From contig NZ_VIRS01000001.1 in assembly GCF_006912135.1 (NCBI RefSeq), positions 186,001 to 250,000 on the forward strand: 64,000 bases of DNA, in the 5' to 3' direction. The notes under the pieces were generated by a model. The model worked only from the letters and a program-made list of their open reading frames with translations. It did not search any database and was not told where the DNA came from. A program made the position numbers and the translations under genes. Shown here piece by piece: positions 4,762 through 18,938 of this stretch (its first letter is position 1; every line of letters begins with the position of its first letter). The stretch is from Cryptosporangium phraense (lineage in GTDB: Bacteria > Actinomycetota > Actinomycetes > Mycobacteriales > Cryptosporangiaceae).

Positions 4762-5102
4762 CAACCGCCGACCAAGGCGATCAGGCGGACGAACGAGATC
4801 ACCGGATCGTCGCTGAGGTCGAGCACCTCGTCGAGGCTCTCGATCTGCCTATCCCCGACCAGCAGCACAAAGCCATTCCGGTCGAAAGCGGCCTCGGCGA
4901 CCTCGGCCTGGCGCTCCCAGTCGACCGGCCGGCCCTCGTGAGCGGCCACCAACGGCATACCAACGTCGGTTCGCGCGGCCTCCTCGCGGACCCGCAGCCG
5001 GACGAGTTCGCGCGCGGTCAGCATGGCCGGTAGAACTTCCAGCGACGTCGTGGCCAGCGCCCGGCCAGTTGCTGTTTCATCCTGAAGCGTCACGGTTGCC
5101 AC
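4761..5102 (-). CDS. Hypothetical protein coupled to the DUF4132 gene
   Basis: A 113-residue soluble protein; the GTG start at 5102 is chosen because GGAGG lies 7 nt upstream. It has a short N-terminal strand pair (VATVTLQDETATGRAL), a helix rich in Leu/Arg (LTARELVRLRVREEAART) and a C-terminal part reading FVLLVGDRQIESLDEVLDL then SFVRLIALVGG. I do not recognise a named family, though small partners of this kind recur next to DUF4132 genes. It overlaps the DUF4132 start by one base, so the two are almost certainly one operon and their products may act together. Confidence 0.7.
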   Translation of the reverse strand: MATVTLQDETATGRALATTSLEVLPAMLTARELVRLRVREEAARTDVGMPLVAAHEGRPVDWERQAEVAEAAFDRNGFVLLVGDRQIESLDEVLDLSDDPVISFVRLIALVGG

Positions 5103-5266
5103 GCCACTACCTCCCTCAGCCCGCACTGTCTAGCAACCGGCTCTGACATTTTCGGCGGCGCACCACCCATGCGCGGCCAGCACGGTTGCTTGGGTCCTGG
5201 TGGACTCCAAGTCCGCTTGCGCCATCTTCACGTCCACGCGACGTCGAAGTGAAGGCACGAGGCGAA

Positions 5267-5319
5267 GGTTGCGGGTTATCCGCAACCGGCATCTACCTGC
5301 GATTCCTGTGTCTTAGAGT
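5267..5319 (+). promoter_or_regulatory. Dyad element copy a with -10-like hexamer
   Basis: A perfect inverted repeat GGTTGCGG (5267-5274), spacer GTTAT, CCGCAACC (5280-5287). A TAGAGT hexamer at 5314-5319 begins 30 nt after the CCGCA core. It lies between the divergent DUF4132 operon and the small plus-strand ORFs starting at 5351; the hexamer position favours plus-strand transcription. Same element as copies b-f. Confidence 0.6.
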
Positions 5320-5350
5320 CGGCGAGCGCACCGGGTAGGCGGTCAGTGCC

Positions 5351-5521
5351 GTGGGTGAGAAAGGGCGTGGCGCTTGGTGGCTACTGCTCGGGTTCGGCTG
5401 GATGACGTCGCGCATTTGGTGCCGCCGTCGGTATCTCTCGCGTCCGGATCGGCGGAGATTCGGATGGTGGCGGTACCTGTCTTCAGAACCTGGGGTGGAG
5501 TCGTCTCTGGGCAGCATGTGA
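5351..5521 (+). CDS. Small hypothetical membrane-associated protein (56 aa)
   Basis: GTG at 5351 opens a 56-codon frame: GEKGRGAWWLLLGFGW is a short hydrophobic, Trp-rich stretch, followed by a strongly basic region (CRRRYLSRPDRRRFGWWRY). This looks like a membrane-tethered basic peptide or the surviving start of a longer membrane protein. It is the first frame downstream of dyad copy a. A competing frame (5374-5718) overlaps it, so the reading frame used here is uncertain. Confidence 0.3.
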   Translation: MGEKGRGAWWLLLGFGWMTSRIWCRRRYLSRPDRRRFGWWRYLSSEPGVESSLGSM

Positions 5522-5523
5522 CG

Positions 5524-5718
5524 ATGCCGCTCGACGACACGGCCGAGGCGGAACAGCGTGGCTCCCTCCGGATCCACCGGGCACGGCAGGTGCACAAAGC
5601 AGTCGGGTTCGCAGTTCTCGTGTTGATCACCGCGCTGTGGATCTCAGCGTTATCGATGAGTGGCGCCCGCGTCGATCGTCTCCGTGCTGGCGATTGCCTG
5701 GTCAGCCCTATTCCTTGA
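5524..5718 (+). CDS. Small hypothetical protein with one membrane segment (64 aa)
   Basis: ATG at 5524 starts two bases after the previous stop. The product has an acidic start (PLDDTAEAEQRG), a basic helix (RIHRARQVHK) and a transmembrane segment (AVGFAVLVLITALWISA, about residues 25-41). The arrangement of a basic amphipathic helix running into a membrane helix is reminiscent of the first half of bacterial '2TM domain' proteins. The second helix is missing, so it may be truncated. No convincing ribosome binding site; function unknown. Confidence 0.35.
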   Translation: MPLDDTAEAEQRGSLRIHRARQVHKAVGFAVLVLITALWISALSMSGARVDRLRAGDCLVSPIP

Positions 5719-6142
5719 AGTTGGCGTGAAACTGGGATCCAGAAACTTCGGGCAGCAGCCATATCTGGAGCGGGGCGGCGTCGTAGTGATCCGCCATTTG
5801 GACCGGACGGCTAGCGAGGAATGGCGACGGCTCAACGTTGACTATCTCTCGCTCGACGGATGAGAAATAGATGGGCCGAGGCCGAGGCATTCGACTCTTC
5901 CGACGGCGGTGCTAGAAGTCGTCGCGTTGAGTGAAGCAGTGACATTCCGTCTGCCTGCTCAGCAGGCTGCTCCTTCCATCAACAGCCGGTCCCGAGAAGC
6001 CTCCTCGGGGTGGTTACACGGCCGAGTCCGCCGAGCGGAGGTCGAATTGCTTGCGCGAAAGGCAGGTATGACGTCCTCGAACCCTGAAGTGGGCGGGCGA
6101 CCCCCGATGCCGGGTCCATCAACACGGGCTACCGTCGACCGC
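5719..6142. other. No supported gene
   Basis: A plus-strand frame (5660-5863) with a hydrophobic start and the sequence RTASEEWRRLNVDYLSLDG, and an open frame from 5909 upstream of the next gene, are present but unsupported by start signals. Possibly remnants of decayed genes. Confidence 0.3.
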
Positions 6143-6454
6143 GTGCCCGAGCCGAAGTCAACGCCAGCCGATGGCGAGGAGCGCTGGCCTTTCCGCATCG
6201 TGGTAAACGTGCTGGCGACACCTGAGCAGGTGCAGCGACTTCAGTCGGTACTGGGCGAGGCGCTGTGCGCGGCGCCGGAGAACCACCCGGGGCCGTGTCG
6301 GATCGCGTGGTCGATGGCCTCCGCCGGCGGCGACGAAGGCGCGCTCGACGGTTCCTACGGTCTGGACCGGGACGAGGCGGTGTTCATCCGGGAGGAGCTT
6401 GGGCCGGTACCGGTCTGGCCACGCGAAGACGTCGATCGCAGCCTCGAGCTGTGA
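6143..6454 (+). CDS. Hypothetical protein (103 aa)
   Basis: A small soluble protein. The frame is open further upstream (to 5909), but the upstream part lacks coding character; the GTG at 6143 starts the credible part. It contains a strand-helix unit (FRIVVNVLATPEQVQRLQSV), then HPGPCRIAWSM and a Gly/Asp-rich turn (GGDEGALDGSYGLDRDEA), ending with an acidic tail. No family recognised. The next gene downstream (6672) is on the same strand, 217 bp away. Confidence 0.5.
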   Translation: MPEPKSTPADGEERWPFRIVVNVLATPEQVQRLQSVLGEALCAAPENHPGPCRIAWSMASAGGDEGALDGSYGLDRDEAVFIREELGPVPVWPREDVDRSLEL

Positions 6455-6671
6455 CGCATTGCTGATCGGCAGGTGGCTGGCTCTGTTCGCGAGATGTGAC
6501 CGGGTTCGCTCGTCAGTTCTGACCGCAGTCGGTGGGCGGTCAGGCTCTGGATGTTCGTGAGAAACGACCGCAGACGCGTGGCCCGACGGCGGAACTTCGG
6601 CGGGTTTGTACGACAGGACGGTGGGGCACCGAGCGACCTAAGTGGCCCTTCGCAGTGAGGAGTTTGCGACC

Positions 6672-7040
6672 GTGCGTCGGGTGCTGTTCGTTCTCGCGGC
6701 CACTTCGTGCGGTATCGGCCTCCTCATTTTGTTGAGCGCCGGGACAGGCGCGGGCACTCCGTTTGGCGTCGGATTCGCCGTGCTGTTGGTGCTGGGCAGC
6801 GTCATCGGTAGCCGGTGGGGTCGGGGGCCGGTGGCGCGTGGCGTTCGGGCTCCGCAGCTGGTCGCGGCCGGGGCAGCAGGCCTCGTGTTGCTCCTTGCGG
6901 CGGCCGCCTTGTGCCTGTGGCGGCCCGGCGCGGTCGCCGGTCTGCCGATCTGGCCATTTCTGCTCTGTATGGCGATCAGTGGTTGGTTGATGGTGCTGGT
7001 CGGGATGATGGGCACCAACAAGAGTTCCGTGAGCGAGTGA
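6672..7040 (+). CDS. Small integral membrane protein (122 aa)
   Basis: GTG at 6672, preceded by GAGGAG 10 nt upstream. Four hydrophobic segments are visible: LFVLAATSCGIGLLILLSA (about residues 4-22), FGVGFAVLLVLGSVIG (32-47), LVAAGAAGLVLLLAAAAL (64-81) and FLLCMAISGWLMVLVGMM (96-113), with short polar loops (RWGRGPVARGVR). It is a four-helix membrane protein of unknown function. It faces the histidine kinase gene convergently. Confidence 0.6.
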   Translation: MRRVLFVLAATSCGIGLLILLSAGTGAGTPFGVGFAVLLVLGSVIGSRWGRGPVARGVRAPQLVAAGAAGLVLLLAAAALCLWRPGAVAGLPIWPFLLCMAISGWLMVLVGMMGTNKSSVSE

Positions 7041-7217
7041 TCAGCGGCAGAGCGCCGGAGGCAGTCGCGGGCCGGCTGTCGCGCAAGTACCCGGCTGCGG
7101 GCAGAACTCGCGAACATCAACGTCGAAGGTCGGCCACTGCGGTCCAACCGGACGAGTAAACGCGGTCAAAACTGACGAGCAGAACCATGTGGCCGCGCCG
7201 CGGAAGCCGGACAGCCT

Positions 7218-8345
7218 CTACCTGGAGGCGACGCTGGCCTGGGCCGACCCATCGGTCGGGTTGACGCGACCGCGATGAGTTGGGAGCAGGACGGCGCGCA
7301 GGCTGGCGGTCACCGTGGTGCCCGTCAAGCCGCCGGTCGCGGGGACGGCGGGGTCGCTGTGGATGGTGACGTCGCCGGCGTGGAGGGCGGCCCGCGCCCG
7401 CATGGCCGGGATGCCCAGTCCCCCGGCTTCGCCGGGTGCGTCCTGTTCGTCGGAGTGACGCAGACCGAGGCCGTTGTCGCTGACCTCGAGGACCAGCTGA
7501 TCGCCGTGCTGGGTGAGTCGGACGGCGACGTGGGTCGCGCCGCTGTGTTTGACGGCGTTGCTCAAGGCTTCCTGGGTGATCCGGTAGGCGGTCAGCGCGG
7601 TCGCCAGATCGACGGGAGCCTCGTCGGCCTTCGGGGGGCGGTAGGTGATCGTGATCTCGGGATGCCGCCGGGCGGTGCGGTCGGCCAGCGTCTCCAGGGC
7701 GGCGCTGAGCCCAAGTTCAGTCAGCACCGACGGGTGGAGGTCGGCGATGATGTCGCGCAGCGCGGTGATCTGCTCGGCCGCCACCGCGGCCCCGTCCTCG
7801 GCTGCTTTCCGCATCAGCCCCTCGTCGGTGCTCGCGGCGGCGCGCTCGAGGCTGCGTCGCAGATGAACGAGGGCCTGCAGGGTCTCGTCGTGCAGTTCGC
7901 GGCTGACGTGGGCACGGCTGTTCTCGACGGCCGCGGTGCGCATCCGCTCCCGGTCCTGACTGAACGCGGCGCGAAGTTCCGGCCAGGCCAGGACCGCCGC
8001 GACCGCGACCAGGACCAGCGCCGGGACGTAGAACGCCCGACCCACGCCCAGGCCAAGTACGTTCCGGTCGAACGGCAGGCTCGAGAGGGCCAGCGCGACA
8101 CCGAACAGCGCCCCGGCCAGATACAGGATCCGGGTCCGCCGGGCCGCGCGTACTGCCAGACCCGCGGCGAGACCGGTGCCGACCAGCGCGACGATCAGGT
8201 CGAGGACGCGCGGGATCGGCCGGTGGTCCAGGCAGGCCGCGGTCACGAGGAGGATCACGCACGCGCTGGTCAGCCGCTGTCGCAGAGTCTGGGCCGCGCG
8301 CGGACCGCTCACGGATGGTTCGGGTGACACGACCTCATCGAACAC
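7218..8345 (-). CDS. Two-component sensor histidine kinase (NarL/LuxR-type partner)
   Basis: A 375-residue HisKA_3-type kinase. The first ~120 residues contain four or five membrane segments with no large extracellular loop, so it probably senses a membrane or lipid-phase signal. The phospho-acceptor region reads SRELHDETLQALVHLR (His about residue 152); the N box is ITQEALSNAVKHSGA and the G box DNGLGL with GGLGIPAMRARA. A polar tail of ~35 residues follows the ATPase domain. It lies 84 bp downstream of the response regulator gene on the same strand and should phosphorylate it. GTG start, no obvious Shine-Dalgarno; a second GTG lies five codons in. Confidence 0.9.
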   Translation of the reverse strand: MFDEVVSPEPSVSGPRAAQTLRQRLTSACVILLVTAACLDHRPIPRVLDLIVALVGTGLAAGLAVRAARRTRILYLAGALFGVALALSSLPFDRNVLGLGVGRAFYVPALVLVAVAAVLAWPELRAAFSQDRERMRTAAVENSRAHVSRELHDETLQALVHLRRSLERAAASTDEGLMRKAAEDGAAVAAEQITALRDIIADLHPSVLTELGLSAALETLADRTARRHPEITITYRPPKADEAPVDLATALTAYRITQEALSNAVKHSGATHVAVRLTQHGDQLVLEVSDNGLGLRHSDEQDAPGEAGGLGIPAMRARAALHAGDVTIHSDPAVPATGGLTGTTVTASLRAVLLPTHRGRVNPTDGSAQASVASR

Positions 8346-8429
8346 GAGAATTGGTGCTCAGCGAGGCGGTTGTGACTTGTTTGATGACCGCCGTGTAGTT
8401 ATATCGCGACTTTCCGGATGACTTGCAGG

Positions 8430-9080
8430 TCACGACGGCAGGTGAGCCCGCGCGTACGCGGCGAGCTGTGCCCGGTCGACCAGCCCGAGACGGTTACGCA
8501 GGTCCGCGCGGATGGACTCCACCGTCCGGACGCTGACCGAGAGCTGCTGCGCGGTCTGAGCGTTGGTGTATCCGGCGGCCCACAGCCGGATCGCGGCCTG
8601 TTCCCGCTCGCTCAACGCCGGGGAGGCCGGTTGTGGGCCCCGAGCGAGCCGGACGGCCAGCTGCGGCTGCACGTACTGCCGGCCCGCGGCCACGGCGGCG
8701 ACCGCGGCGGCGAGCTCGGTCGCCGGAGCGTCCTTGAGCACGAAACCCGCTGCGCCGGCCGCGAGGACCGCGCGAACCACCGGAAGATCGTCCTGCGCGG
8801 AGAGGATCAGGATCGGCACGGACGGCGCGGCCCGGCGCAGCTCAGGCAGGTGCCGCAGCGCGTGCCCATCCGGCAGATTCAGATCCAGGATCAGCACGAC
8901 CGGGGCCGCCCGGCCGGTGAGGATTTGGTAGGCCCCGGAGAGCGATCCGGCTTCCGCGACCACCGGGTGACCGGCTTCAGTGAGGAGCAGTCGGGTCCCG
9001 GCCCGCGTCGTGGGATGGTCGTCGACCACGGCCACGCTCACACCCGAGAGTGGGGCAGCTGGTGATGCGCGGTCGGTCAT
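8430..9080 (-). CDS. NarL/FixJ-family response regulator
   Basis: 216 residues: receiver domain (about 13-130) with acidic pair VVDDHPT, phospho-acceptor LILDLNLPDG, the ILSAQDD switch residue and FVLKDA lysine, then a LuxR-type helix-turn-helix (LSEREQAAIRLWAAGYTNAQ to VESIRADLRNRLGL, about 152-200). It presumably regulates genes in response to the kinase encoded just downstream. The ATG at 9080 has no Shine-Dalgarno, but TAGAGT lies exactly 6 nt before it (9092-9087), so the message is probably leaderless. Confidence 0.92.
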   Translation of the reverse strand: MTDRASPAAPLSGVSVAVVDDHPTTRAGTRLLLTEAGHPVVAEAGSLSGAYQILTGRAAPVVLILDLNLPDGHALRHLPELRRAAPSVPILILSAQDDLPVVRAVLAAGAAGFVLKDAPATELAAAVAAVAAGRQYVQPQLAVRLARGPQPASPALSEREQAAIRLWAAGYTNAQTAQQLSVSVRTVESIRADLRNRLGLVDRAQLAAYARAHLPS

Positions 9081-9108
9081 GCCGGGACTCTAATCCGCTC
9101 GATAGCCA

Positions 9109-10014
9109 TCACCACGGAGGCGAATCGGCTGGGGATCGTCGGACGTGGAGAGCGCGAAGCGCCGCGGTCAGCTGGTCGTGTCCCTGCTGGGTACCGATCC
9201 CCGCGCGGGCATTGGGATGCTCGCCGTAGTAACGGATCGCATGAGCGAGAAAGACCGGGTCGATGAAGATCCGCCGCTCAGCGATCCAGAACCGCTCGTA
9301 TTCGGCGGGTACCGGTGGGAAAGGCGACAGTGGGGTGGCGACCGGCCAGCGCGGTCGGTTGAGCAGTAGCCAGATTCCCCGGTTCTTGCCCGAGGGCGGT
9401 GGCGGACCTCCCGGCGCAAGGGCGTCCCAACTCAGCGTATGGATGGAACCCTGGGTCAGGCCACTGGCCCAGCGAATCGCGAGCCCGTCACTGCTCAGCG
9501 TCACGAACGGCCGGCGGAACAACGTCAGCCAAGTCGCGACGGCCAGCAGAACGACGGCCAGCACGACGAAGACGCCGGCAACGACCGCCCGCACCCAGAA
9601 CGAGTCCACGGGCACACGGCCGATCACGAGCAATCCCCCGGCCAGAGCAGCGAAATACGGGAGGGCTGCGTGATCCAGGAGCCGGGTCGGCCCGACGAAG
9701 ACTGCCCGTCCGCGTTGGCGACCGAGCATGAATGCTGCGGGACGCCGTCGGGAGACGCGCCAGAACATCGCGACGTGGAGGCCGAAGAAGACCAATCCGA
9801 CCGCGTACATCGGGAGGAATAACCCAGCCGACCAGTACTCGCCGCGCAAGGGACCCACGAAGAGGACCTTGATGAAGATGCCGACAGCCAAGGCCGCTGC
9901 GCTGAAGGCCAGCGTGACCGTCCGGCTTCGCCGTACCACTGCGGCCACGGCCGACGGGGTGACCTCCTCGGTCTCCAGCGCCGAAGGCAGGGCGGACGGC
10001 TTGCAGTGGGTCAC
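9109..10014 (-). CDS. Novel membrane protein family, paralog 1
   Basis: 301 residues from a GTG at 10014. Four hydrophobic segments (for example TLAFSAAALAVGIFIKVLF, AGLFLPMYAVGLVFFGLHVA, LPYFAALAGGLLVIG and VVAGVFVVLAVVLLAVATW) precede a cytoplasmic-looking C-terminal domain with LSWDALAPGGPPPPS, WLLLNRP, IFIDPVFLAHAIRYY and GEHPNARAGIGTQQ. The same motifs in the same order occur in the tandem genes at 12707 and 13426, so the three are paralogs of a family I cannot name. The start is chosen because it matches the start context of the 12707 paralog (GATACT, 7 nt, GTG). The frame is open upstream to 10122 but that part covers the dyad. Confidence 0.7.
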   Translation of the reverse strand: MTHCKPSALPSALETEEVTPSAVAAVVRRSRTVTLAFSAAALAVGIFIKVLFVGPLRGEYWSAGLFLPMYAVGLVFFGLHVAMFWRVSRRRPAAFMLGRQRGRAVFVGPTRLLDHAALPYFAALAGGLLVIGRVPVDSFWVRAVVAGVFVVLAVVLLAVATWLTLFRRPFVTLSSDGLAIRWASGLTQGSIHTLSWDALAPGGPPPPSGKNRGIWLLLNRPRWPVATPLSPFPPVPAEYERFWIAERRIFIDPVFLAHAIRYYGEHPNARAGIGTQQGHDQLTAALRALHVRRSPADSPPW

Positions 10015-10021
10015 CCGCCGA

Positions 10022-10081
10022 AGTATCGGTCGGCGATGGCTGCGACGGGCGATGGGTCGCGAAAGTTGCGGGAAACCCGCA
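10022..10081 (-). promoter_or_regulatory. Dyad element copy b with -10-like hexamer
   Basis: TGCGG (10067-10071), GAAAC, CCGCA (10077-10081), flanked on the left by GAAAGT. On the minus strand GATACT (10027-10022) begins 40 nt past the dyad, and the GTG start of paralog 1 follows 7 nt later, so transcription is probably leaderless with the dyad centred near -60. Confidence 0.65.
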
Positions 10082-10174
10082 CTACCTGCGTGACCACGCC
10101 GAACGCGCGTGCGGGGCGCCACGGCGGGCGGTCTTCGACTCTCTCAGCCGACGGACCGTTCCCCTGGACCACTG

Positions 10175-10537
10175 TTACTCGATCGCTCCTGGCAGGTCGT
10201 GGTGAGCGGCCAGTGTCGGCAGCTTTGGCGACGGTCGCAACCGTACGGCAGCGCCGTCACCATCCGGAGGCTCATTGCTCGGGATGCCCTCGAAGGCGAA
10301 GTCGGCGTCGCGGGCATCGACGGGCTCCGGATCGGGCAAGAGGAGGCGTGTAGCCAGGTCCGTCGCGTCGGCGAGCGAGTATCCGTAGAAGTCCAGCCGG
10401 ACCCATCCGCCCCGGCCGCGGTTGACCACCTGCACCCGTCGCACACCCGGCAGGAACATTCGCGCATGCGGTCCGGTCGACACAGCAAAGTCGTTGAGGA
10501 ACCGGAGCGCCTCGCGCCAGGACTCGCCCCCGCTCAC
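10175..10537 (-). CDS. Hypothetical protein (120 aa)
   Basis: A soluble protein starting at a GTG that overlaps the stop of the upstream gene by four bases (GTGA). The sequence has a helical start (SWREALRFLNDFAV), two strands (RRVQVVNRGRGGWVRLDFYG) and a helix (SLADATDLATRLLL), then an acidic Pro-rich tail (DPEPVDARDAD, NEPPDGDG). No known family. It is the second gene of a two-gene operon with the small membrane protein at 10534-10794, which lies downstream of dyad copy c. Confidence 0.55.
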   Translation of the reverse strand: MSGGESWREALRFLNDFAVSTGPHARMFLPGVRRVQVVNRGRGGWVRLDFYGYSLADATDLATRLLLPDPEPVDARDADFAFEGIPSNEPPDGDGAAVRLRPSPKLPTLAAHHDLPGAIE

Positions 10538-10794
10538 GCCCCGGGCTCGCTAGTCGATCGCGCTGGGTTGTCTCGTTGCCGGTCCCGACGCCACTCGCCG
10601 ACAAACCGAACGAACCAGCCGACCGCGATAGACGTAAATAGAGCGAGCAGCAACGCGTATCTGACCGTGTCTGTCGCCCAGGCCGCGGCCCGGTAGCTGT
10701 CCGCGAGGCTCCACCCGAACCGAATCGCAGAGACGACGCCCAGACCGGCCACCACCGCCGTGAACCAGGGCCTCCGGTAATCAAGACGTCGCAC
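10534..10794 (-). CDS. Small two-helix membrane protein (86 aa)
   Basis: The GTG at 10794 is preceded by AAGGAG with a 7-nt gap, a strong ribosome binding site; a GTG/ATG further upstream at 10821 is therefore rejected. Two membrane segments (FTAVVAGLGVVSAIRFGWSL and YALLLALFTSIAVGWFVRF) are joined by a polar loop, with a basic C-terminus (GEWRRDRQRDN). Function unknown. It overlaps the next gene by four bases. Unlike the neighbours controlled by dyads b, d, e and f, this transcript has an untranslated leader. Confidence 0.6.
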   Translation of the reverse strand: MRRLDYRRPWFTAVVAGLGVVSAIRFGWSLADSYRAAAWATDTVRYALLLALFTSIAVGWFVRFVGEWRRDRQRDNPARSTSEPGA

Positions 10795-10859
10795 CTGGCA
10801 TCTCCTTGCGTTCACCGCCAACGCGCCGAATCGACCGCCGCGCGCCTAAGCACACGTCG

Positions 10860-10908
10860 ACACTACGAAGGGGCTTCGTTGGTCAGGACCCTTTGCGGAC
10901 AACCCGCA
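10860..10908 (-). promoter_or_regulatory. Dyad element copy c (reverse orientation) with -10-like hexamer
   Basis: TGCGG (10894-10898), ACAAC, CCGCA (10904-10908); on the minus strand it reads GGAAGCTGCGG-N5-CCGCA. A minus-strand TAGTGT (10865-10860) starts 29 nt past the dyad, about one helical turn closer than in copies b, d, e and f. The downstream gene starts at 10794. Confidence 0.5.
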
Positions 10909-10947
10909 GCTTCCGCAGGACAGGGCAGCATCGCCCGGGCACCCGGA

Positions 10948-11358
10948 CTAACTCCGTCCGGACTTCAACTCGTCATCGCTGTCAAACTCGCCGGCCCGCA
11001 CACGATCCACGAGCTCGCCTATCCGCGCCCCAGGCTCAACCCCAGCCGGTAGCACCTCCTTAAGGAGTACCTTGACGCGGCCTACCGGACCCCACCGCGA
11101 CCCTTCGACCCGCAGAACACCCACCTTCCATCGTGCACGGTGGCCCCAGGCCCGCTCAAATATCACCGCGAGCAGAAGGGCTACCAGCATCAATGCAAGG
11201 CCCGATAGATCGGTCGCTCCTCCGTCGAACACGCTGCGGGTCAATGACTCGTATCGTTTGACGCCGCGTACCCAGAAGACCCATGGGGGCCGTTCGACCC
11301 GGACGTCATGATCGCTCGGCTCGAACCCCAATTCTCCAGGCAACTCACTGAACGCCAC
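10948..11358 (-). CDS. Hypothetical membrane protein (136 aa)
   Basis: GTG start at 11358. After a ~35-residue polar head (ELPGELGFEPSDHDVRVERP), residues about 50-70 form one transmembrane segment (LSGLALMLVALLLAVIFERAW). The rest is a small basic-then-acidic domain (VLRVEGSRWGPVGRVKVLLKEV, RIGELVDRVRAGEFDSDDEL). The head also contains PPWVFWVRGVKRYESLTRS, which could be a second, weaker membrane contact. No family recognised. It lies upstream of dyad copy c on the same strand and has no dyad of its own that I can see. Confidence 0.5.
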   Translation of the reverse strand: MAFSELPGELGFEPSDHDVRVERPPWVFWVRGVKRYESLTRSVFDGGATDLSGLALMLVALLLAVIFERAWGHRARWKVGVLRVEGSRWGPVGRVKVLLKEVLPAGVEPGARIGELVDRVRAGEFDSDDELKSGRS

Positions 11359-11562
11359 CGCGTCCGCCTCTCACGGTCGACCCGCCAGGGTATTCGCCTC
11401 GGATGCGCACACGACATTCAGTTCGGCCGGCCTCTTCAAATTCTGACGGAGGCGAGACCTCGGTTCGGCTTACCGACCGCGGGTGCTCGTCACGACGGGT
11501 GGTCCGCCGATGTTCATTTTGACGGGCGCGCGCCTGTCGGGAGACCAAAGTCCGGCGATCTC

Positions 11563-12264
11563 TCAATCCCGAAAGTCGGCGCACACCGTTCGCTGGAAAG
11601 TGGTAGCCGGCGTACGCGCAATCCGCTCGGCACCTTTCCGGAATTGGAGATATAAAACCTCTCCCGGCGAAATATCCCGCAGCTCCTCTACGGTAAAATC
11701 TACGGATAGAGTGCTCCACTTGCTGCTATCCGTCCCGCCGAAAATCGAGTACACCGTGTTGGGCTGGAGCACGTCCAGAGGGTGGTCTGCCGTCCAGCCG
11801 GTCGGCGGAGCGATCAACGAAACCGCCGCATACCGACGAATTCTTTGGTCGCTATCCCAATTGCCTAGCGTGATCAACTTTTCGCCGTCGTCGCGGTATA
11901 GGACGACGCCGTCGATCCACCCCTTACAGACCGCTATGACGGCGACCGGCTGACCGGACGCATCCACGCTCACGCCGGTGAATCCGCCTTGCGGAACGCT
12001 GCAGCCCGATAAAGTCGCCAAAAGGCTCACAAGCCCGATCCTTGCCAGCCAGCGCCCGATCAGATCGATCCAGGCGCGGGGTCTGCCGACATTCTCGCGC
12101 GGCTCGGGCGGCGCGAAAAGCAGGATTCGCTGGGCGCAGAGTCGGGCGACCGAACGATCAGAGCACCGCTCGAAACGACCCTCTTGATGCCTCCCTCGAG
12201 CCTGCCACCCACGGCTGCCATACCGGGGCGGCAAGGCACGCCCGCCTCGCCCTGGCACGATCAT
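11563..12264 (-). CDS. Putative lipoprotein, start uncertain
   Basis: The secure part begins around 12072: WIDLIGRWLARIGLVSLLATLSGC is a signal peptide with lipobox LSGC (Cys codon 12003-12001), followed by ~145 residues of a beta-rich domain (GVSVDASGQPVAVIAVCKGW, DGVVLYRDDGEKLITLG, WTADHPLDVL). No ATG, GTG or TTG gives a normal-length signal peptide in this frame. The only promoter-consistent start is the ATG at 12264, which has the leaderless spacing seen with dyad d but adds ~64 residues that look non-coding. Either a longer leader is real, a non-standard start is used, or the 5' end has been damaged. Function unknown; probably displayed on the outer face of the membrane. Confidence 0.5.
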   Translation of the reverse strand: MIVPGRGGRALPPRYGSRGWQARGRHQEGRFERCSDRSVARLCAQRILLFAPPEPRENVGRPRAWIDLIGRWLARIGLVSLLATLSGCSVPQGGFTGVSVDASGQPVAVIAVCKGWIDGVVLYRDDGEKLITLGNWDSDQRIRRYAAVSLIAPPTGWTADHPLDVLQPNTVYSIFGGTDSSKWSTLSVDFTVEELRDISPGEVLYLQFRKGAERIARTPATTFQRTVCADFRD

Positions 12265-12270
12265 GCGCGA

Positions 12271-12331
12271 AGCGTAAGCAGAGTCTCTGCAATTGCCAGC
12301 GCCCGGAGCCGAAACTTGCGGGTCAACCGCA
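12271..12331 (-). promoter_or_regulatory. Dyad element copy d with -10-like hexamer
   Basis: TGCGG (12317-12321), GTCAA, CCGCA (12327-12331), flanked by GAAACT. On the minus strand TACGCT (12276-12271) begins 41 nt past the dyad and an ATG follows 6 nt later (12264). The spacing is the same as in copies b, e and f. Confidence 0.6.
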
Positions 12332-12636
12332 GCCAAGAGGCATGGTCTGTCCACCTCTTGACCGAATTTCGAGCCTTCCGCTAAGAGCGACTGCACGGAT
12401 ATTGCAACTCCTAGGTAGCCCGCTCGTTAAGCAGTCGCCGCCGCGCGAAGAAACCCCGATACCCGTCCAAAAGTCGCAAGCCGCAACCACCGTCACCGAC
12501 GCCCATGGCCCAACGGCCGGTCGCTGTGAGACGGGCAACGGGAACCCTCGTAACCCGCCGGTCCGTCAGCGGTACGGCCATCGAGCCAAAGGTCGAGGAC
12601 CTGGACCCGCCATCCCAGGTCTACGCTGGTCAGGAA
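12332..12636. other. Intergenic between divergent dyad-controlled units
   Basis: About 300 bp between dyad copies d and e. No frame with start signal and coding character on either strand. Confidence 0.45.
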
Positions 12637-12699
12637 GTTGCGGATAGTCCGCAACCTTGGACTTCATGCTTCCCCGGTCGAACGCTCGCGCTCGATACT
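12637..12699 (+). promoter_or_regulatory. Dyad element copy e with -10-like hexamer
   Basis: GTTGCGG (12637-12643), ATAGT, CCGCAAC (12649-12655), a perfect 7-bp dyad preceded by GGAA. GATACT (12694-12699) begins 41 nt past the CCGCA core and the GTG start of paralog 2 follows 7 nt later. Confidence 0.65.
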
Positions 12700-12706
12700 G
12701 CGTCGA

Positions 12707-13420
12707 GTGACGATCGACCCGGTGACGCGCCGCAGCCGCCGAACGGCGCTGGTCTTCGGCGCCCTCGGAGCCGGCAGCGTCGCCGCTCTCTGGGCCGTGA
12801 GCCGCCGCCGACCCGCGAGTCTCGCAATCGGCCTGCGCCGAGGAAAACCGGCATTCGTTGCGCCGAGCACTCCGGTGCTCCGCGGATCGCTCGTCGTCAC
12901 CTCTGCCCCGTTCGCCGCGCTTCTCGCGACGTCGCCCTTCTTCGCCGCACTGTTCGACGGCACCACCCGCGTCCTGTTTCACGCAGCAACCGCGTCTGTG
13001 GCCATCGTCGGTCTGGGACTTCACATCTGGACGCTCTACCGAGCCGCGCCGCTCCGTATCACCCCGGATGCCATCATCGCCCCGCTGCGACGCCGCATCC
13101 CGTGGGACGCACTCGCGCCTGACGGCCCCAGCTCGCGGTCCGCGCGCGGCACCACGGTGTGGCTGCTCGTCCGGACCGCGGCCCCCGACGGCCGACCTGA
13201 CGTCCGCGTCGCCACCACCCGATATTCAATACCGCCGTGCTCCCGAGACCTGCGCGACGTCTACGTCGACCCGGCGCTCCCCGGCGCCGCTCTGCGCTAC
13301 TACCGCGATCACTCCGGCGCCCGCCCGTCGATCGGCCCACCTGACGGATTCCAACGCCTGCTCACCGCGCTCGCCCAAGACGTCCCCCGCGTGGCCGCGA
13401 CACTACTGCACGGGCGCTGA
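12707..13420 (+). CDS. Novel membrane protein family, paralog 2
   Basis: 237 residues from GTG 12707. It opens with DPVTRRSRRTALVFGALGAG, has membrane segments at about 18-32, 67-85 (LVVTSAPFAALLATSPFF) and 95-115, then the shared C-terminal domain: RIPWDALAPDGPSSRSARG, VWLLVRTA, VYVDPALPGAALRYYRDH, ARPSIGPPDGFQRLLTAL. It is shorter than its tandem neighbour because the second membrane segment region is missing. The 5' context (GATACT, 7 nt, GTG) matches paralog 1. It forms an operon with paralog 3, whose ATG lies 5 nt after this stop. Confidence 0.7.
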   Translation: MTIDPVTRRSRRTALVFGALGAGSVAALWAVSRRRPASLAIGLRRGKPAFVAPSTPVLRGSLVVTSAPFAALLATSPFFAALFDGTTRVLFHAATASVAIVGLGLHIWTLYRAAPLRITPDAIIAPLRRRIPWDALAPDGPSSRSARGTTVWLLVRTAAPDGRPDVRVATTRYSIPPCSRDLRDVYVDPALPGAALRYYRDHSGARPSIGPPDGFQRLLTALAQDVPRVAATLLHGR

Positions 13421-13425
13421 GCACG

Positions 13426-14262
13426 ATGAGAGCCGACCCCGTGACCCGCCGCAGCCGACGCATCGCCTTACTCTTCGGCGTCCTCGGCGCGGGCGGATTT
13501 ACTGCGTGGCATCTCTGGCCGACCGAACAGCTCTACGCCCTGCCGGTCTGGATCATCGTCATCCCTGTCGGCCTTGTCCCGATTCTCGTCGGGATCTACA
13601 TGGCCCTGTTCTGGTCGGCGAACCGCAGGCCACCGGCCGGCCTGCAGATCGGCCACCGACGCGGCACGGCGATGTTCCTCGCCCCGAGCACCCCGCTGAT
13701 CCGCGGAGCCGTGTTCCTCCTGACCACGCCGTTCCTGGCCGGTCTCGTCACTGAACACAGCTTTACCGAGCTAACCACCGGTGCCGCGAAAACGGTCGTT
13801 TGCGCTCTTCTCGTCCTCGTCGCGATCGGGATCACCGGCGCGCACGTCTGGTTGTTCTACCGATCAGCGCCGCTCCGTCTCACCGCCGAGGGCGTCGTTA
13901 CTCCGCTCGGCCGCAGGATCCCGTGGGACGCCTTCGCGCGCGACGGGCCTAGCTCCCGGTCCGTCGAAGGCAATACGGTCTGGCTACTCGTCCGCCATGC
14001 CACCCCCGGCGGCCGCCCCTACACCGGACCAGTACTCGCAGCGCGGACGCCGACCTACGAGTGGTACCCGCTCACCCTCGACGGCATCTTCATCGACCGT
14101 CAGTTCCTCGCGGCCGCGCTGCGCTACTACGCCGAGCACCCGGACGCTCGCCCCACGATCGGCACCGCTGACAGCTACCACCGCCTACTGACCGCGCTCA
14201 CCAACTCGAGGGTGACCACCGGCAACGCGGCCGCCCACCAGCCGGGCGCATCTCCCCCGTGA
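13426..14262 (+). CDS. Novel membrane protein family, paralog 3
   Basis: 278 residues. N-terminus MRADPVTRRSRRIALLFGVL is nearly identical in layout to paralog 2, which points to a recent tandem duplication. Membrane segments: about 15-30, 38-62 (VWIIVIPVGLVPILVGIYMA), 88-104 (LIRGAVFLLTTPFLAGLV) and 122-142. The C-terminal domain carries RRIPWDAFARDGPSSRS, VWLLVRHA, IFIDRQFLAAALRYYAEHP and ARPTIGTADSYHRLLTAL. The order membrane anchor, PWDA(L/F)A turn, LRYY helix is common to all three copies. Function unknown. Co-transcribed with paralog 2 from dyad copy e. Confidence 0.7.
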   Translation: MRADPVTRRSRRIALLFGVLGAGGFTAWHLWPTEQLYALPVWIIVIPVGLVPILVGIYMALFWSANRRPPAGLQIGHRRGTAMFLAPSTPLIRGAVFLLTTPFLAGLVTEHSFTELTTGAAKTVVCALLVLVAIGITGAHVWLFYRSAPLRLTAEGVVTPLGRRIPWDAFARDGPSSRSVEGNTVWLLVRHATPGGRPYTGPVLAARTPTYEWYPLTLDGIFIDRQFLAAALRYYAEHPDARPTIGTADSYHRLLTALTNSRVTTGNAAAHQPGASPP

Positions 14263-14358
14263 TGACGCCGACGGCCTCGTGCCCACGACGTTTTAGGGCG
14301 GCCGGCTCCGCGACGACCTGACCACCACGATCGTCCGCTGAGCGACGAACGGTCATGC

Positions 14359-14538
14359 TCACCAGCCCGAGACGCTCATTCCGCGGCGCAGGCTAGCCCG
14401 AAGACGTGACTTCGCAATCCGGTACCGCAGTCGGGGCAACCAACCGGACTCAGGGGTGAGCCCCATACGCGTGCGCAGAAGTTCCTCCTCCGTACGCAGA
14501 CCCTCGCAAAACAGTGCGCGGAAGTCGACGAAGCTCAT
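14359..14538 (-). CDS. Small basic helical protein (59 aa), coupled to upstream gene
   Basis: ATG at 14538 overlaps the stop of the 14535-14978 gene (ATGA). The product is mostly helical and basic: MSFVDFRALFCEGLRTEEEL, RTRMGLTPESGWLPRLRYRI, AKSRLRASLRRGM. The tight coupling and coding character make it a likely real gene. No family recognised. Confidence 0.5.
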   Translation of the reverse strand: MSFVDFRALFCEGLRTEEELLRTRMGLTPESGWLPRLRYRIAKSRLRASLRRGMSVSGW

Positions 14539-14978
14539 GCCCGCCCTTCAGCCATCCGAACGGAAAGCCGGTGCTCGTCCGGGATCGCCGGCGGCTCATC
14601 CGCTGCCGTGGACCAGGCCACCCCGCCCCGATGCCTCGCCCACTGCAGTGCCCTACCGGGCGGCTCCTGAACGTGGCTGTAGAAGACGTCCATACCCATC
14701 CGCTCCGCCGTCATCGATGTCCGCCCCAAGCCATCCGGATCGCGGGTGAGGTCCCAGTCCAGGCCCAATACCAAATCCCGCGTCGGGCCGTGCTGGACGA
14801 AGAGAACGCACAACGCACCGCACTCGTACCGGCCCGGGTCGACCCAGCTCGCGAGGATCCGCACGCTCGGGTCCGCCTCCAGCCGGGCGGTCTCCAGCAT
14901 TGCTCGCCGCACAGCCTCCCCATAAACCGACCGATCCTGTTCCGATTCCACGTCGACGGGCCTCCCGGTGCGCGCCAC
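14535..14978 (-). CDS. Hypothetical protein (147 aa)
   Basis: The frame is open from 15098, but its first 40 codons look non-coding and overlap the neighbour by 16 bases; the GTG at 14978 is the first start with plausible protein downstream. Visible features: a helix (SVYGEAVRRAMLETARLEAD), two strands with a DPGRYECG turn and LCVLFVQHGPTRDLVLGLDW, a DPDG loop and a C-terminal EWxxxxxAVAWST-like stretch (ALQWARHRGGVAWST). Looks like a small alpha/beta regulatory or immunity-type fold, but I do not recognise a family. It is followed by the coupled 59-residue gene. Confidence 0.5.
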   Translation of the reverse strand: MARTGRPVDVESEQDRSVYGEAVRRAMLETARLEADPSVRILASWVDPGRYECGALCVLFVQHGPTRDLVLGLDWDLTRDPDGLGRTSMTAERMGMDVFYSHVQEPPGRALQWARHRGGVAWSTAADEPPAIPDEHRLSVRMAEGRA

Positions 14979-15082
14979 CGCGTTACTACGCCGGCCGTTG
15001 GGTGACTCTGGCGTAGGCAGCGCCCCGCTCAATCTTCGACCGCGACGCCCAACCGCGCCCCGGGCTCGTTCTCGATCCCACG

Positions 15083-15583
15083 TCAGTGGTCCGCCCACGG
15101 CTCGACGTACCGCATCCGCCCTGGCTCCAGATCGAGCCGGCGGATCTCGTCGTCGAAGCGACGCAGTTCGTCATCGGTGAACTCGAAATACAACGCCTGG
15201 CCGCTGTCGGCCATGGTGAACACCTCGAACTCGCCGCCGCGGAGGGACCCGTCGGTATGGCGCCCGTAGCCGTCGGCGCAGATCATCCACGGACCGAGTG
15301 TCTCGACGAGCCGATACTCCTCGTCCTCACGCGGATCCAGATCGACGATCCACCCACCCGGCGCCCGCGCCGCACCTAGCTCTGCGAGCCGTGCAAACGG
15401 ACCCGTCAGCGATTCCGGCAACGTCGGCCAGTCGGAGAGCACGGACATCTGCATGGTCGCCACCACCGGCCGGACGATCTCCAGCGCCACCGGCACCAGT
15501 AGTAACAGCTCCCCCAACGGCACGTCGTCGGTCAGCAGCGCGCAATAGCGCCGACCACCTTCCACCCACCTCTTGCCTCTCAC
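15083..15583 (-). CDS. Hypothetical protein, second gene of the DUF4240-like operon
   Basis: 166 residues. The GTG at 15583 overlaps the upstream stop by four bases; another GTG at 15565 after AAGAGG is possible. The N-terminal third is hydrophobic (LGELLLLVPVALEIVRPVVA). The rest is soluble: LSDWPTLPESLTGPFARLAE, WIVDLDPREDEEYRLVE, WMICADGYG, GEFEVFTMADSGQALYFEFT, then DDELRRFDDEIRRLD. The pattern resembles small SMI1/immunity-like or DUF-type regulators, without a clear match. Co-transcribed with the 15580-16449 gene from dyad copy f. Confidence 0.55.
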   Translation of the reverse strand: MRGKRWVEGGRRYCALLTDDVPLGELLLLVPVALEIVRPVVATMQMSVLSDWPTLPESLTGPFARLAELGAARAPGGWIVDLDPREDEEYRLVETLGPWMICADGYGRHTDGSLRGGEFEVFTMADSGQALYFEFTDDELRRFDDEIRRLDLEPGRMRYVEPWADH

Positions 15584-16449
15584 GCCACCGGACCGGGAAG
15601 CGGCGGTAGCACAGCCAGCGAAAAGGCATCCCGGACCAGCCCGAAAACGAGCAAGAAATCCTCCTCGACGCTCGCCCGCAACCGGTCCGAGGTCGGAGCC
15701 GTCATGCGCTCGATCCCGAAGTACACCACTGCCTGCGCACGGCGCTTGCCCCCACGGGCTCGAGGCTTCTCGAACTCGTCGGGTTCGAAGGCGTACCGGA
15801 AGTTCAGCTCCAGGTCGGGTATGCCCGCCGGCTTCCACCAGGCCTGCCACGCCGGGTCCTTCACGATCGAGTCGTGAACCATGTCTTGCGCGGTCGAATG
15901 CGCGCGGAAGCCGTCCTCTCCGACGCGCTGCCAGCCGATGCCGTAGCTGCTGTGCAGTTGCAGCCACGGCGGCACCCACGGATCGTCGTCGTGGGGCTCC
16001 TCCGTGCCCCAGGCCTGCCAGTTGCTGCCGGTCTCGTAACTGAGCGGGGTTTCGTGGTCCCACGCCAGATCGGTCGCCCGCTCCCACGCGTCCGGAGCGA
16101 CCGAAAGCAGGAACTCCCCGTCCATCGCGTCCAGCGTCGTCAGCAGCGCCGCCGGATCGATCAGGGCCCGCTCGTAGACCGCGCGCCCCGCGGCGACGGT
16201 GCCGGCCCGTACGTAGAGAAACGAGTCGTCGGACAGCCCCAGCGACTCGCCGGACTCCGGATCGACCAGATCCTGTTCGGCGTGCGCCGGCGTGTCCAGC
16301 CGATACAAGACCTCCGCCAGCTGATCGGCGAAGCTTGTGATCTCGGCCTCCGGACGCGTCGCGAGCACGGCGGTCAGCCGTTCGATCGACTCCTCCGTGA
16401 CCACCCCACCCAGCTGCCTCACCAACGACCAGAACTCGTCCTCCGTCAC
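15580..16449 (-). CDS. DUF4240 domain protein
   Basis: 289 residues from GTG 16449. The N-terminal ~130 residues begin MTEDEFWSLVRQLGG and carry SFADQLAEVLYRLDTPAHAEQ and DSFLYVRAGTVAAGR, the usual opening of DUF4240 proteins, which recur near toxin/immunity and polymorphic loci. The C-terminal half is an additional beta-rich domain (SSYGIGWQRVGEDGFRAHS, DLELNFRYAFEPDEFE, AVVYFGIERMTAPTSDRL). Family role is not known. TACGGT lies 6 nt before the GTG, consistent with a leaderless message from dyad copy f, and the gene overlaps its downstream partner by four bases. Confidence 0.75.
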   Translation of the reverse strand: MTEDEFWSLVRQLGGVVTEESIERLTAVLATRPEAEITSFADQLAEVLYRLDTPAHAEQDLVDPESGESLGLSDDSFLYVRAGTVAAGRAVYERALIDPAALLTTLDAMDGEFLLSVAPDAWERATDLAWDHETPLSYETGSNWQAWGTEEPHDDDPWVPPWLQLHSSYGIGWQRVGEDGFRAHSTAQDMVHDSIVKDPAWQAWWKPAGIPDLELNFRYAFEPDEFEKPRARGGKRRAQAVVYFGIERMTAPTSDRLRASVEEDFLLVFGLVRDAFSLAVLPPLPGPVA

Positions 16450-16455
16450 GCACGG

Positions 16456-16516
16456 ACCGTAGCCACAGCTCACAGCGCCACACCAGCGAAACTGGGAAGC
16501 TGCGGAAAACCCGCAG
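16456..16516 (-). promoter_or_regulatory. Dyad element copy f with -10-like hexamer
   Basis: CTGCGG (16500-16505), AAAAC, CCGCAG (16511-16516), preceded by GGAAG. On the minus strand TACGGT (16461-16456) begins 40 nt past the dyad, 6 nt before the GTG of the DUF4240-type gene. On the plus side a TAGTTC lies 6 nt before the DUF1990 ATG (16580), so the site may serve both directions. Confidence 0.6.
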
Positions 16517-16579
16517 AGCCCGCTTCGTCCGCGGCCGTCGACCTCTGGTGGTCGCCGCGGAATGGGGTAGTTCTCCGAT

Positions 16580-17128
16580 ATGAGAATTCGGGCGAATGCC
16601 CTGCTTGAACGTGCGGGATCGCTCGCCCTCACCTACTCCCAGGTCGGCGCAACCGCGAGCCAGGCCCCGCCCGGCTACCGGTTCTTCCGTCGCCGTGAGC
16701 GCGTCAGCGACCATGCTGCGGACTTCGACCGCGCCGTGACGGCGCTCCGAGGCTGGCAGATGCACCGGGGCGCGGGCCTGACCGTCCTCGCCGACGGCGA
16801 CGCACGGCTCGGTTCCCACGTCGTCGTCGGCTTCGGCCCCGCCCCTTTCACCCTCCTGGCGCCCTGCCGAGTCGTCGACGACATCGACGGCGACAAGCAC
16901 AGCGGCTTCGCTTACGGCACCCTCCAAGGACACCCCGAAAGCGGCGAGGAGCGCTTCGTCGTGGAGAGAACTGCCGAAGGCGTCTTCTTCGAGGTCACCG
17001 CCTTCTCCAAACCGGCAACCCCGTTGGCCAGGCTCGGCGGGCCTCTCACCCGCCTCGTCCAGGACCGGGTCACCACGCGGTATCTCCGCTCACTGCGCCG
17101 AGCACTAGCGGAACCCCCAGGCAGGTAG
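16580..17128 (+). CDS. DUF1990 family protein
   Basis: 182 residues, the normal size. Diagnostic features: TYSQVGAT near the start, PPGYRFFRRRERV, RAVTALRGWQMHRGAGL, the AYGTLQGHPESGEERF block (about 113-130) and the C-terminal FSKPATPLARLGGPLTRLV then RYLRSLRRAL. The fold is START-like, with a hydrophobic ligand pocket inferred for the family; no enzyme activity is established. The gene is divergent from the DUF4240-type operon across dyad copy f. Confidence 0.85.
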   Translation: MRIRANALLERAGSLALTYSQVGATASQAPPGYRFFRRRERVSDHAADFDRAVTALRGWQMHRGAGLTVLADGDARLGSHVVVGFGPAPFTLLAPCRVVDDIDGDKHSGFAYGTLQGHPESGEERFVVERTAEGVFFEVTAFSKPATPLARLGGPLTRLVQDRVTTRYLRSLRRALAEPPGR

Positions 17129-17299
17129 CCCGAGACGTGCGAGCGACACGCTCCGCCCCTGCGTCGTCGCGACGACGTCGTTCTTGCCGACACCCCGGCC
17201 GGTTGGGCGTAGCGGATCGCGACGACTTTCCGGATCCGCTCCACACCTCGTGTGGCCGGCGCGTCCTAGGAGGGAGGCTTGCCCACCGAGAGGAGCGGC

Positions 17300-17782
17300 G
17301 TGTCGACGTTCGACGAGTACGTGGCGGAGCGGGGTGTCGCGCTGCTCCGGTTCGCCTATCTGCTCACCGGTGACCACCAGCTGGCCGAGGACCTCGTCCA
17401 GGAGTCGCTGGTCCGCGTTCATCGTCGCTGGTCGCGCATCCGGCGCACCGATCGGCCGGGCGCCTACGTCCGCCAGACGATCCTCCGCCAGTACCTGAGC
17501 TGGCGACGGCGCTCCTCGTCCTCGGAGATCCCGGTCGCGGTGGACGCCGACCGGTCCGGCGACGGTGACCCCGCCGACAGGGTCAGCGAGCGCGCCGCCC
17601 TGATGGCGGCGCTGGCCACGCTCCCACGGCAACAGCGGGCGGTGCTCGTGCTCCGGTTCTACGAGGACCGCGACGACGGCGAGATCGCCGCGCTACTCGG
17701 GTGCACGGCGGCCACGGTCCGCAGCCACGCCAGCCGTGGCCTGGCCCGCTTACGCGCCAACGCCGCGGCCGAGATCCGATGA
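17300..17782 (+). CDS. ECF sigma factor, SigE-like (SigE70 family)
   Basis: 160 residues from GTG 17300 (AGGAG four bases upstream); a TTG at 17279 with AGGAGG is an alternative. Region 2 is visible as FDEYVAERGVALLRFAYLL and DHQLAEDLVQESLVRVHRRW (about 4-42); region 4 as LPRQQRAVLVLRFYEDRDD and GEIAALLGCTAATVRSHASR (about 103-148). It directs RNA polymerase to an unknown stress or cell-envelope promoter set. The downstream gene at 17794 encodes a single-pass membrane protein and probably serves as its anti-sigma factor. Confidence 0.92.
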   Translation: MSTFDEYVAERGVALLRFAYLLTGDHQLAEDLVQESLVRVHRRWSRIRRTDRPGAYVRQTILRQYLSWRRRSSSSEIPVAVDADRSGDGDPADRVSERAALMAALATLPRQQRAVLVLRFYEDRDDGEIAALLGCTAATVRSHASRGLARLRANAAAEIR

Positions 17783-17793
17783 AGGGAAGATCG

Positions 17794-18843
17794 ATGACCG
17801 AGTGGGACGACGACGGGCTGAAGACCCTGCTGGCCGAGTGCGCCGAGGACGTCACCGAAGCTCCCGGGCTAGTGAGCGGCGTCCACGCCCGGCGCCGCCG
17901 CGCCCGCAGGCGCATGGTGGCGGCCGCGGTCGTCGCGCTCATCGTTCTCGCCGGGGGGATCCTGTTGTGGCCGCGCGCCGACGACGCCGACCGGTTGCAG
18001 GCCCTCGACCGTCCGTCCGGCGCCGTGCCGGGCGCGCCCGTCACGGTCGGCTGGCTCCCCGCCGGATTCGCCGAGCCCCACGCCCACCTCGCCGGCCCGG
18101 GAGCGTGGTCGATCGAGACCGACCGCGCCACGCCGATCGGCCAGCTCGCGATTCAGGTCCTCTCCGACGAACCGGTCCCCCGGACGAAGCCCGGAACGCT
18201 GACGAACATCACGCTCGACGGCACGCCGGCGACCCTCTACACCGTCCCGCAGCACGGTGCCGGTGCCCCGCCCTACACCGCGCTCCCGGAAGCCGAAGGG
18301 CCCTACCTCGAGCTGATCTACCAGCGGAAGCCCGGTCAGTGGATCCGCATCGTCGCCAGCAACAAGGCCGGCGACGTCCCGCTCGGGATCTCCGAGGACG
18401 ACCTGCGCCGGGTCGCGGCCGGACTCGTCGACGGCGTCACGCCGATCGAGGACCTGGTCCGTTTCCGGTCGCTACCCGACGGCGTCGTGCTCAGCGAGAT
18501 GTCGGGGTCCGCGCGCCTGGCCGAGGCGGCGTTCTGCCTGCCCGGCCAGGCTCCGGCACAGTGCGTTTCGAAGGGGCCCGGCATCGTGCTCACCGTGCAA
18601 CTCGCGAACGGCTTCCCGCGCCCGTTCACCGATACGGCTGGCTGGCCGGCCAAGGCGATCCGGGTCGGCGACCGGACCGTCGACATGCGGCTCAACCCCG
18701 GTCTCGGCGAGATCGAGGCCCGGATGGAGCTCGCCGACGGCGTCGTCGTGTCGGCCTACCGGAGCAAACGGCTGCCGCTGAGCTGGGATCAACTGGCCCG
18801 GTTCGTCGCCGGGATCGACCCCGGCGACGATTTCCCGCGCTAG
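17794..18843 (+). CDS. Single-pass membrane protein, probable anti-sigma partner
   Basis: 375 residues counted from the second Met (ATG 17794); the ATG at 17779 overlaps the sigma stop (ATGA) and may be used instead. The cytoplasmic head (WDDDGLKTLLAECAEDV, about 60 residues) ends in a basic RRRRARRRM stop, then one transmembrane helix (MVAAAVVALIVLAGGILLW, about 42-60) and a large extracytoplasmic domain (~310 residues) with two related-looking halves and Cys residues near 235-245 (AAFCLPGQAPAQCVSKG). No zinc-binding HxxxCxxC motif is visible in the head. The topology and the operon support an anti-sigma or sensor role for the adjacent ECF factor. Confidence 0.75.
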   Translation: MTEWDDDGLKTLLAECAEDVTEAPGLVSGVHARRRRARRRMVAAAVVALIVLAGGILLWPRADDADRLQALDRPSGAVPGAPVTVGWLPAGFAEPHAHLAGPGAWSIETDRATPIGQLAIQVLSDEPVPRTKPGTLTNITLDGTPATLYTVPQHGAGAPPYTALPEAEGPYLELIYQRKPGQWIRIVASNKAGDVPLGISEDDLRRVAAGLVDGVTPIEDLVRFRSLPDGVVLSEMSGSARLAEAAFCLPGQAPAQCVSKGPGIVLTVQLANGFPRPFTDTAGWPAKAIRVGDRTVDMRLNPGLGEIEARMELADGVVVSAYRSKRLPLSWDQLARFVAGIDPGDDFPR

Positions 18844-18938
18844 CGGATTGGCCTGTCCGCCGACGTGAGCGGCCCGCGGCTGTGAGAGGGAGTGCGAGCA
18901 GGCTGAGCGTCGGCCGAATCGGCTACGCCGACCACTCG

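Follow-up and report, generated by a model that had tools for sequence, protein, structure and literature searches.

What links three membrane protein genes of Cryptosporangium phraense, and why do two of them share a promoter layout? The stretch of DNA analyzed here (hereafter, the window) comprises 64,000 nucleotides of contig NZ_VIRS01000001.1 (positions 186,001 to 250,000). An earlier note on it had read the genes at 9109-10014, 12707-13420 and 13426-14262 as one family that could be assigned to no known one, has a promoter layout common to two of its genes and arose by recent amplification. Our analysis upholds all of this except the recent amplification, and adds an adjacent two-component system (TCS), which the note had missed and which offers an explanation for the inverted repeat found in the two promoters. 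The three genes belong to a real membrane protein family, and two of its promoters are very probably targets of the adjacent TCS.

All three genes were present in the list of open reading frames (ORFs), and their products are homologous and can be aligned along their whole length. The motifs PWDA(L/F)AxxGP, WLL(V/L), RYY and ARxxIG stand in register and in the same order in all three, as the note had described. In an alignment of 13 family members, the products of 12707-13420 and 13426-14262 are 48% identical to each other and 31% and 29% identical, respectively, to the protein encoded by 9109-10014 (labeled 9112), while in an alignment of the three window sequences the identities to 9112 are 38% and 35%. 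The alignment further revealed an in-frame absence of approximately 40 residues around the second transmembrane (TM) helix of the 12707-13420 protein, which would alter the number of its membrane crossings.

The promoters of the genes that start at 10014 and 12707 carry the dyad TTGCGG-N5-CCGCAA (17 bases; core TGCGGN5CCGCA; searched with a spacer of 5 only), 68 and 69 bases before the starts, followed in both by GATACT-N7-GTG, which confirms the promoter layout common to the two genes. The core dyad occurs six times in the window, as compared with 0.37 expected and a maximum of three in 100 shuffles, and all six copies lie within 11.3 kb (5270-16515); as full 17-base dyads, two of the six are exact, three carry one mismatch and one carries two. 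Scanning upstream of 13426 found no dyad, which its place as the second gene of its pair accounts for. Each of the six dyads is accompanied by exactly one TANNNT or (G/C)ATANT hexamer at 15-59 bases, with both sides counted, and all six hexamers are found 27, 28, 38 or 39 bases from the dyad, i.e. at two spacings that differ by one turn of the helix. Since the hexamer pattern and the offsets were chosen after looking, the binomial probability of 2e-12 for this arrangement is far too small. In four of the six cases a start codon follows the hexamer 6-7 bases on (10014, 12707, 12264 and 16449), which suggests leaderless mRNAs at these genes. Across four whole genomes, a dyad combined with a SATANT hexamer (S, G or C; picked after seeing the promoters) with 27-41 bases between them was found only at the 10014 and 12707 promoters, and the backward control gave 0.

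On the minus strand, the membrane protein gene 10014-9109 is followed after 28 bp by a response regulator (9080-8430) and, after a further 84 bp, by a histidine kinase (8345-7218). The regulator possesses both the receiver and the GerE/LuxR DNA-binding domain of the NarL/FixJ type. It has its own TAGAGT-N6-ATG, present also at its two closest relatives, and need not, therefore, rely on the 10014 promoter alone. In the kinase, a hydropathy analysis placed the N-terminal TM segments so near each other that no large extracellular domain would fit in between. Among solved structures, the full-length relatives of the regulator are DevR, ChrA and VraR, while its DNA-binding part displayed weak matches, including EsrB and VraR (7e-5 to 1e-4). 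Matches to the regulator number at least 52 in its own genome and at least 63-75 in each of three sister genomes. To our knowledge, neither the site nor the targets are known for most such regulators in actinobacteria.

The two closest relatives of the regulator are encoded on contig C16 of the same genome (79% identity) and on contig C10 of the sister genome G001 (77%), with all others at or below 42% among the matches listed from five genomes, and these three proteins have the same recognition-helix stretch, VSVRTVESIRA. The C. phraense genome contains six exact dyads, two in the window, three within 83 bases on C16 and one on C22, and five of the six are no more than 4 kb away from one or the other regulator copy, the C16 group being located directly before the 79% relative. 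In G001, the only two exact dyads flank the regulator-kinase pair of the 77% relative. Of the sister genomes with no close regulator among the matches listed, G002 has no exact dyad and G003 (best match 42%) has one, on contig C31. Beside both relatives, the dyads recur with a 22-bp period (L014 5227, 5249, 5271 and 5293; L049 8356, 8378 and 8400), each series including one dyad with two mismatches. The exact dyad on C22 is close to where an ORF, taken at its greatest length, begins; this ORF resembles an XRE-type gene, its domain having been read by eye.

The half-site is also that of a known regulator of the same type. The NarL-type ComA of Bacillus subtilis (PMC4797271) binds an inverted TTGCGG repeat as activator site, with a preferred spacer of 4 nucleotides and a tolerated spacer of 5; the spacer found here, fixed at 5 in our search, is thus the tolerated one. 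The two systems differ further in that the ComA box combines an inverted and a direct repeat whereas 22-bp arrays are found here, and in that ComA has another kinase and other target genes; ComA was not named among the solved-structure matches of our regulator. Taken together, the dyads beside both close relatives, the identical recognition helix, the 22-bp arrays, the hexamers at all six window dyads and the ComA half-site argue that the dyad belongs to this regulator, and we predict with high confidence that it is the operator of the adjacent NarL-type system, to which the regulator binds. The sequence reveals a site, two copies of the regulator, each with its kinase, and six or more candidate promoters, which renders the whole regulon directly testable with one purified domain.

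Several observations weigh against linking the dyad to this system and to the membrane protein family. The hexamer test was devised post hoc, and the strict hexamer at the window offsets was found at none of the nine core dyads that lie in the stretches from C16 and G001. Of the family's 12 separate upstream regions, only three contain a dyad with up to two mismatches within 300 bases, beginning at -68 and -69 in the window and at -67 on contig C5 of G003 (L052:1774-1790), where a degenerate copy with two mismatches keeps the same distance to the start codon in a genome whose best regulator, among the matches listed, is 42% identical. The earlier note had proposed to look for the dyad at the family's other genomic copies; by this measure, none of the three has it. 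In the sister genomes, fragments of the window region have their matches at scattered sites, and the genes do not keep the order seen here. Finally, whole-genome counts reached 6 exact dyads versus 7 in the backward control, and 54 versus 67 (C. phraense) and 44 versus 95 (G001) core dyads; since these totals do not exceed the control, the case for an operator rests on clustering and not on abundance. Such counts, together with the degenerate G003 copy, would suit an alternative in which the dyad either serves another regulator or represents a dispersed palindromic repeat of small size, its closeness to the TCS genes being accidental. However, each of the three close regulators, which come from two species, has dyads clustered next to it, and the dyads stand at a fixed distance to start codons, form in-phase 22-bp arrays and share their half-site with ComA; we regard this alternative as improbable. 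The explanation as a whole, a membrane protein family with two promoters targeted by the neighboring TCS, we consider probable with some reserve.

The family itself could not be assigned to any known one, in agreement with the note, as none of the 13 members reached a curated cut-off of Pfam or NCBIfam. The N-terminal half is rich in TM segments, the number of strong ones shifting with the threshold in a simple hydropathy scan; a low-confidence AlphaFold2 model of the 9112 protein displayed four long helices, and we take the N-terminal part of the family to comprise roughly four TM helices. The C-terminal domain comprises, in order, strands, an IPWDA turn and DPxFLAxAxRYYxxHPxAR in the alignment. 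Its nearest likenesses are bPH_6 (PF10756) and NCBIfam STM3941_fam (NF041635), in which short strands and a PW turn likewise come after a TM segment and to which the profiles match weakly, but the family stays below every curated cut-off, and its conserved DPxFLAxAxRYYxxHPxARxxIGT falls outside the part that aligns with bPH_6. For bPH_6 (gathering score 22 bits), one of the 13 members matched at E ≤0.1 (0.044), and among the remote relatives L073 (0.023) and L072 (0.38) were below the cut-off and L077 (3.3e-25) above it. In a search of 101 genomes, the family profile reached L077, a clear bPH_6 protein, at 6.4e-5, near the threshold. When the widened family, from which L077 was excluded as being a bPH_6 protein itself, was compared with bPH_6 by hhalign, the probability was 71.5% for the domain and 84.6% with the TM part (26-55 columns aligned), as opposed to 0.1-0.5% for reversed controls. 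STM3941_fam (curated 40 bits) matched two of the 13 members weakly, with 15.6 bits for the 9112 protein, and gave 23.6 bits for the remote relative L072. Counting against a PH-like fold, no member reached a PH cut-off, the genus members alone gave just 44.6% in hhalign, and AlphaFold2 runs with the three window sequences yielded unusable models (pLDDT 45.4 and 41.1). On balance, these modest profile matches make a PH-like C-terminal domain fairly probable, and the domain is probably cytoplasmic. A solved-structure match by the family profile (best 0.13) was taken as chance and rejected.

How old, then, is the family? A three-row profile identified three more paralogs in the C. phraense genome (E 8e-37, 7e-28 and 2e-7), two of them 14 kb apart on contig C3 and one on C63, bringing the family to at least six members. 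Among 61 related genomes, a six-row profile found the family in all four that belong to the genus and in one further genome, a 13-row profile found 12 among 101 genomes of the order, and a search of 394 genomes of the class, with six candidates scored per genome, found two. Eight remote relatives resemble the family mainly in the C-terminal part (hhalign 99.4%, columns 126-271). By these searches, the family is genus-centered, and its relatives within the order are sparse and remote. The tree was built from the 13-member alignment, which omits the remote relatives and the frame-broken, partial or fused members G003:C1, G003:C40, G003:C58 and G001:C27. In this tree, the 12707 and 13426 proteins form one supported group with a G003 gene, although the order of branching within this group is not settled, while 9112 groups with a G001 gene (52% identity). 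The G003 gene is 51% and 54% identical to the tandem pair, so that the divergence within the pair (48%) is about the same as that of each from the G003 gene. Since the two groups each include a gene of a sister species, the two subfamilies predate the split of these species, and the recent amplification proposed earlier was rejected. Of the omitted members, G003:C1 (L051:7803-8755) is broken by a frame change and abuts, end to end, the gene of another NarL-type regulator (36% identity to that of the window).

From the homology, the dyad pattern, the promoter geometry and the gene order, the following mechanism can be proposed. The membrane-embedded kinase would sense the state of the envelope and phosphorylate the regulator, which would in turn bind TTGCGG-N5-CCGCAA dyads centered about 48 or 60 bp upstream of the transcription start and activate mostly leaderless mRNAs. 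With the 10014 gene placed ahead of the regulator and the kinase in the same direction, the system would boost both its own expression and the amount of the membrane protein. The 9109-10014 protein may then act back on the kinase in the manner of LiaF, and the 12707 and 13426 products would be further effectors at the membrane. The position of 9109-10014 directly ahead of a NarL-type regulator and kinase indeed recalls LiaFSR/VraTSR, the envelope-stress systems of Firmicutes, though this likeness is one of layout only and not of homology. LiaF consists of LiaI-LiaF-TM and Toastrack, whereas the C-terminal domain of the window family looks PH-like, and none of the 13 members matched the LiaI-LiaF-TM or Toastrack Pfam models at E 0.1; the remote relative L075 matched DUF2157 at 0.079, below the cut-off. 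A LiaF-like feedback role of the 9109-10014 protein is conceivable but rather unlikely. Alternatively, the membrane proteins may act solely as effectors of envelope protection or remodeling, without feedback on the kinase, the gene order being incidental. The contigs G000:C16 and G001:C10, which carry the other copies of the system, yielded no family member, and of the 13 family-bearing stretches searched with this regulator and kinase, two have a member at most 1 kb away from a regulator match (the window, where 9109-10014 adjoins the regulator and kinase, and G003:C1). An incidental order fits less well with one member standing 28 bp ahead of the regulator and behind a dyad, and with the broken G003 member lying end to end with another NarL-type system, and we give a role as effectors alone slightly less than even chances.

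The genes that share the operator elsewhere bear on the nature of the signal. On C16 and in G001, operators separate the regulator from a giant RHS-type gene that is divergent to it, and a looser CAATCT at 28 is common to both RHS-side promoters. Sharing of the operators with RHS-type and NlpC/P60 genes points to an envelope or competition signal. The C16 gene (L063:10277-16639) encodes 2120 aa with RHS_repeat and ends in a Cytotoxic (PF09000) domain, and it accounts for both PF05593 matches in the genome; the RHS-like gene of G001 encodes more than 2800 aa, its repeats having been read by eye. As the only RHS gene that PF05593 finds in the genome begins next to the operator array of C16 and encodes a product with a terminal Cytotoxic domain, the window proteins might be immunity or accessory proteins of this competition system. 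Yet immunity proteins to Cytotoxic-type toxins are normally small and soluble, the window contains no RHS (PF05593) match and C16 no family member, so that we hold this reading to be very improbable. A broader scenario, in which a duplicated envelope-sensing system has recruited a new class of membrane partner, a TM and PH-like protein, as a third component replacing LiaF, and the same dyad code connects these proteins to the RHS-type competition gene and to a gene for a wall hydrolase elsewhere in the genome, so that one signal would serve several phased, mostly leaderless promoters, is speculative and in our view unlikely. An unassigned membrane protein family gains its first functional context; a literature search of titles and abstract starts found nothing on this family or regulon.

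Table 1. Features of the window, with candidate operators and promoter elements.
Feature	Position	Strand	Remarks
Histidine kinase	7218..8345	-	HATPase_c; HisKA_3 6e-6; N-terminal TM segments
NarL-type response regulator	8430..9080	-	Response_reg 1.7e-20 and GerE 4.8e-11; TAGAGT hexamer from 9092
Family member, 301 aa	9109..10014	-	Putatively leaderless GTG at 10014; about 4 TM helices, then predicted C-terminal PH-like domain; upstream of regulator and kinase
GATACT -10-like hexamer	10022..10027	-	38 bp past dyad, 7 nt before GTG
Candidate operator dyad, GTGCGG-N5-CCGCAA (1 mismatch)	10066..10082	-	Starts 68 bases before GTG 10014
Candidate operator dyad TTGCGGATAGTCCGCAA, exact	12638..12654	+	Starts 69 bases before start codon of 12707
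GATACT -10-like hexamer	12694..12699	+	39 bp past dyad, 7 nt before GTG
Family member, 237 aa	12707..13420	+	Putatively leaderless GTG
Family member, 278 aa	13426..14262	+	Begins 5 bp past 12707-13420; no dyad of its own
Candidate operator dyad, exact	5269..5285	+	TAGAGT at 5314-5319 (28 bp); gene that follows is uncertain
Small protein, two predicted TM helices	10534..10794	-	Start GTG 10794 after AAGGAG
Candidate operator dyad (1 mismatch)	10893..10909	-	TAGTGT at 10865-10860 (27 bp); upstream of small two-TM gene
Putative lipoprotein gene	11563..12264	-	LLATLSGC about 80 aa past start, later start possible; no Pfam match
Candidate operator dyad (1 mismatch)	12316..12332	-	TACGCT at 12276-12271 (39 bp); possible leaderless ATG at 12264
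DUF4240 gene	15580..16449	-	Pfam match
Candidate operator dyad (core exact, both outer bases changed)	16500..16516	-	TACGGT at 16461-16456 (38 bp); putatively leaderless GTG 16449

The surroundings of the other system copies were also recorded. On G000:C16, the dyads occupy L014 5227-5309 and 7315-7375; arrays stand between the second regulator copy and the divergent RHS gene, and dyads also precede an NlpC/P60 gene. The G001:C10 layout (L049:8356-8416, 10400-10460 and 10530-19001) comprises an NlpC/P60 gene, kinase, regulator, operator arrays and the RHS-like gene. Within the window, a tRNA scan of positions 1-30000 and an Rfam scan of 4500-17500 found none, and no clear gene stands behind the dyad at 5269-5285, where the small ORF 5374-5718 displayed a TM-like end and a weak codon bias.

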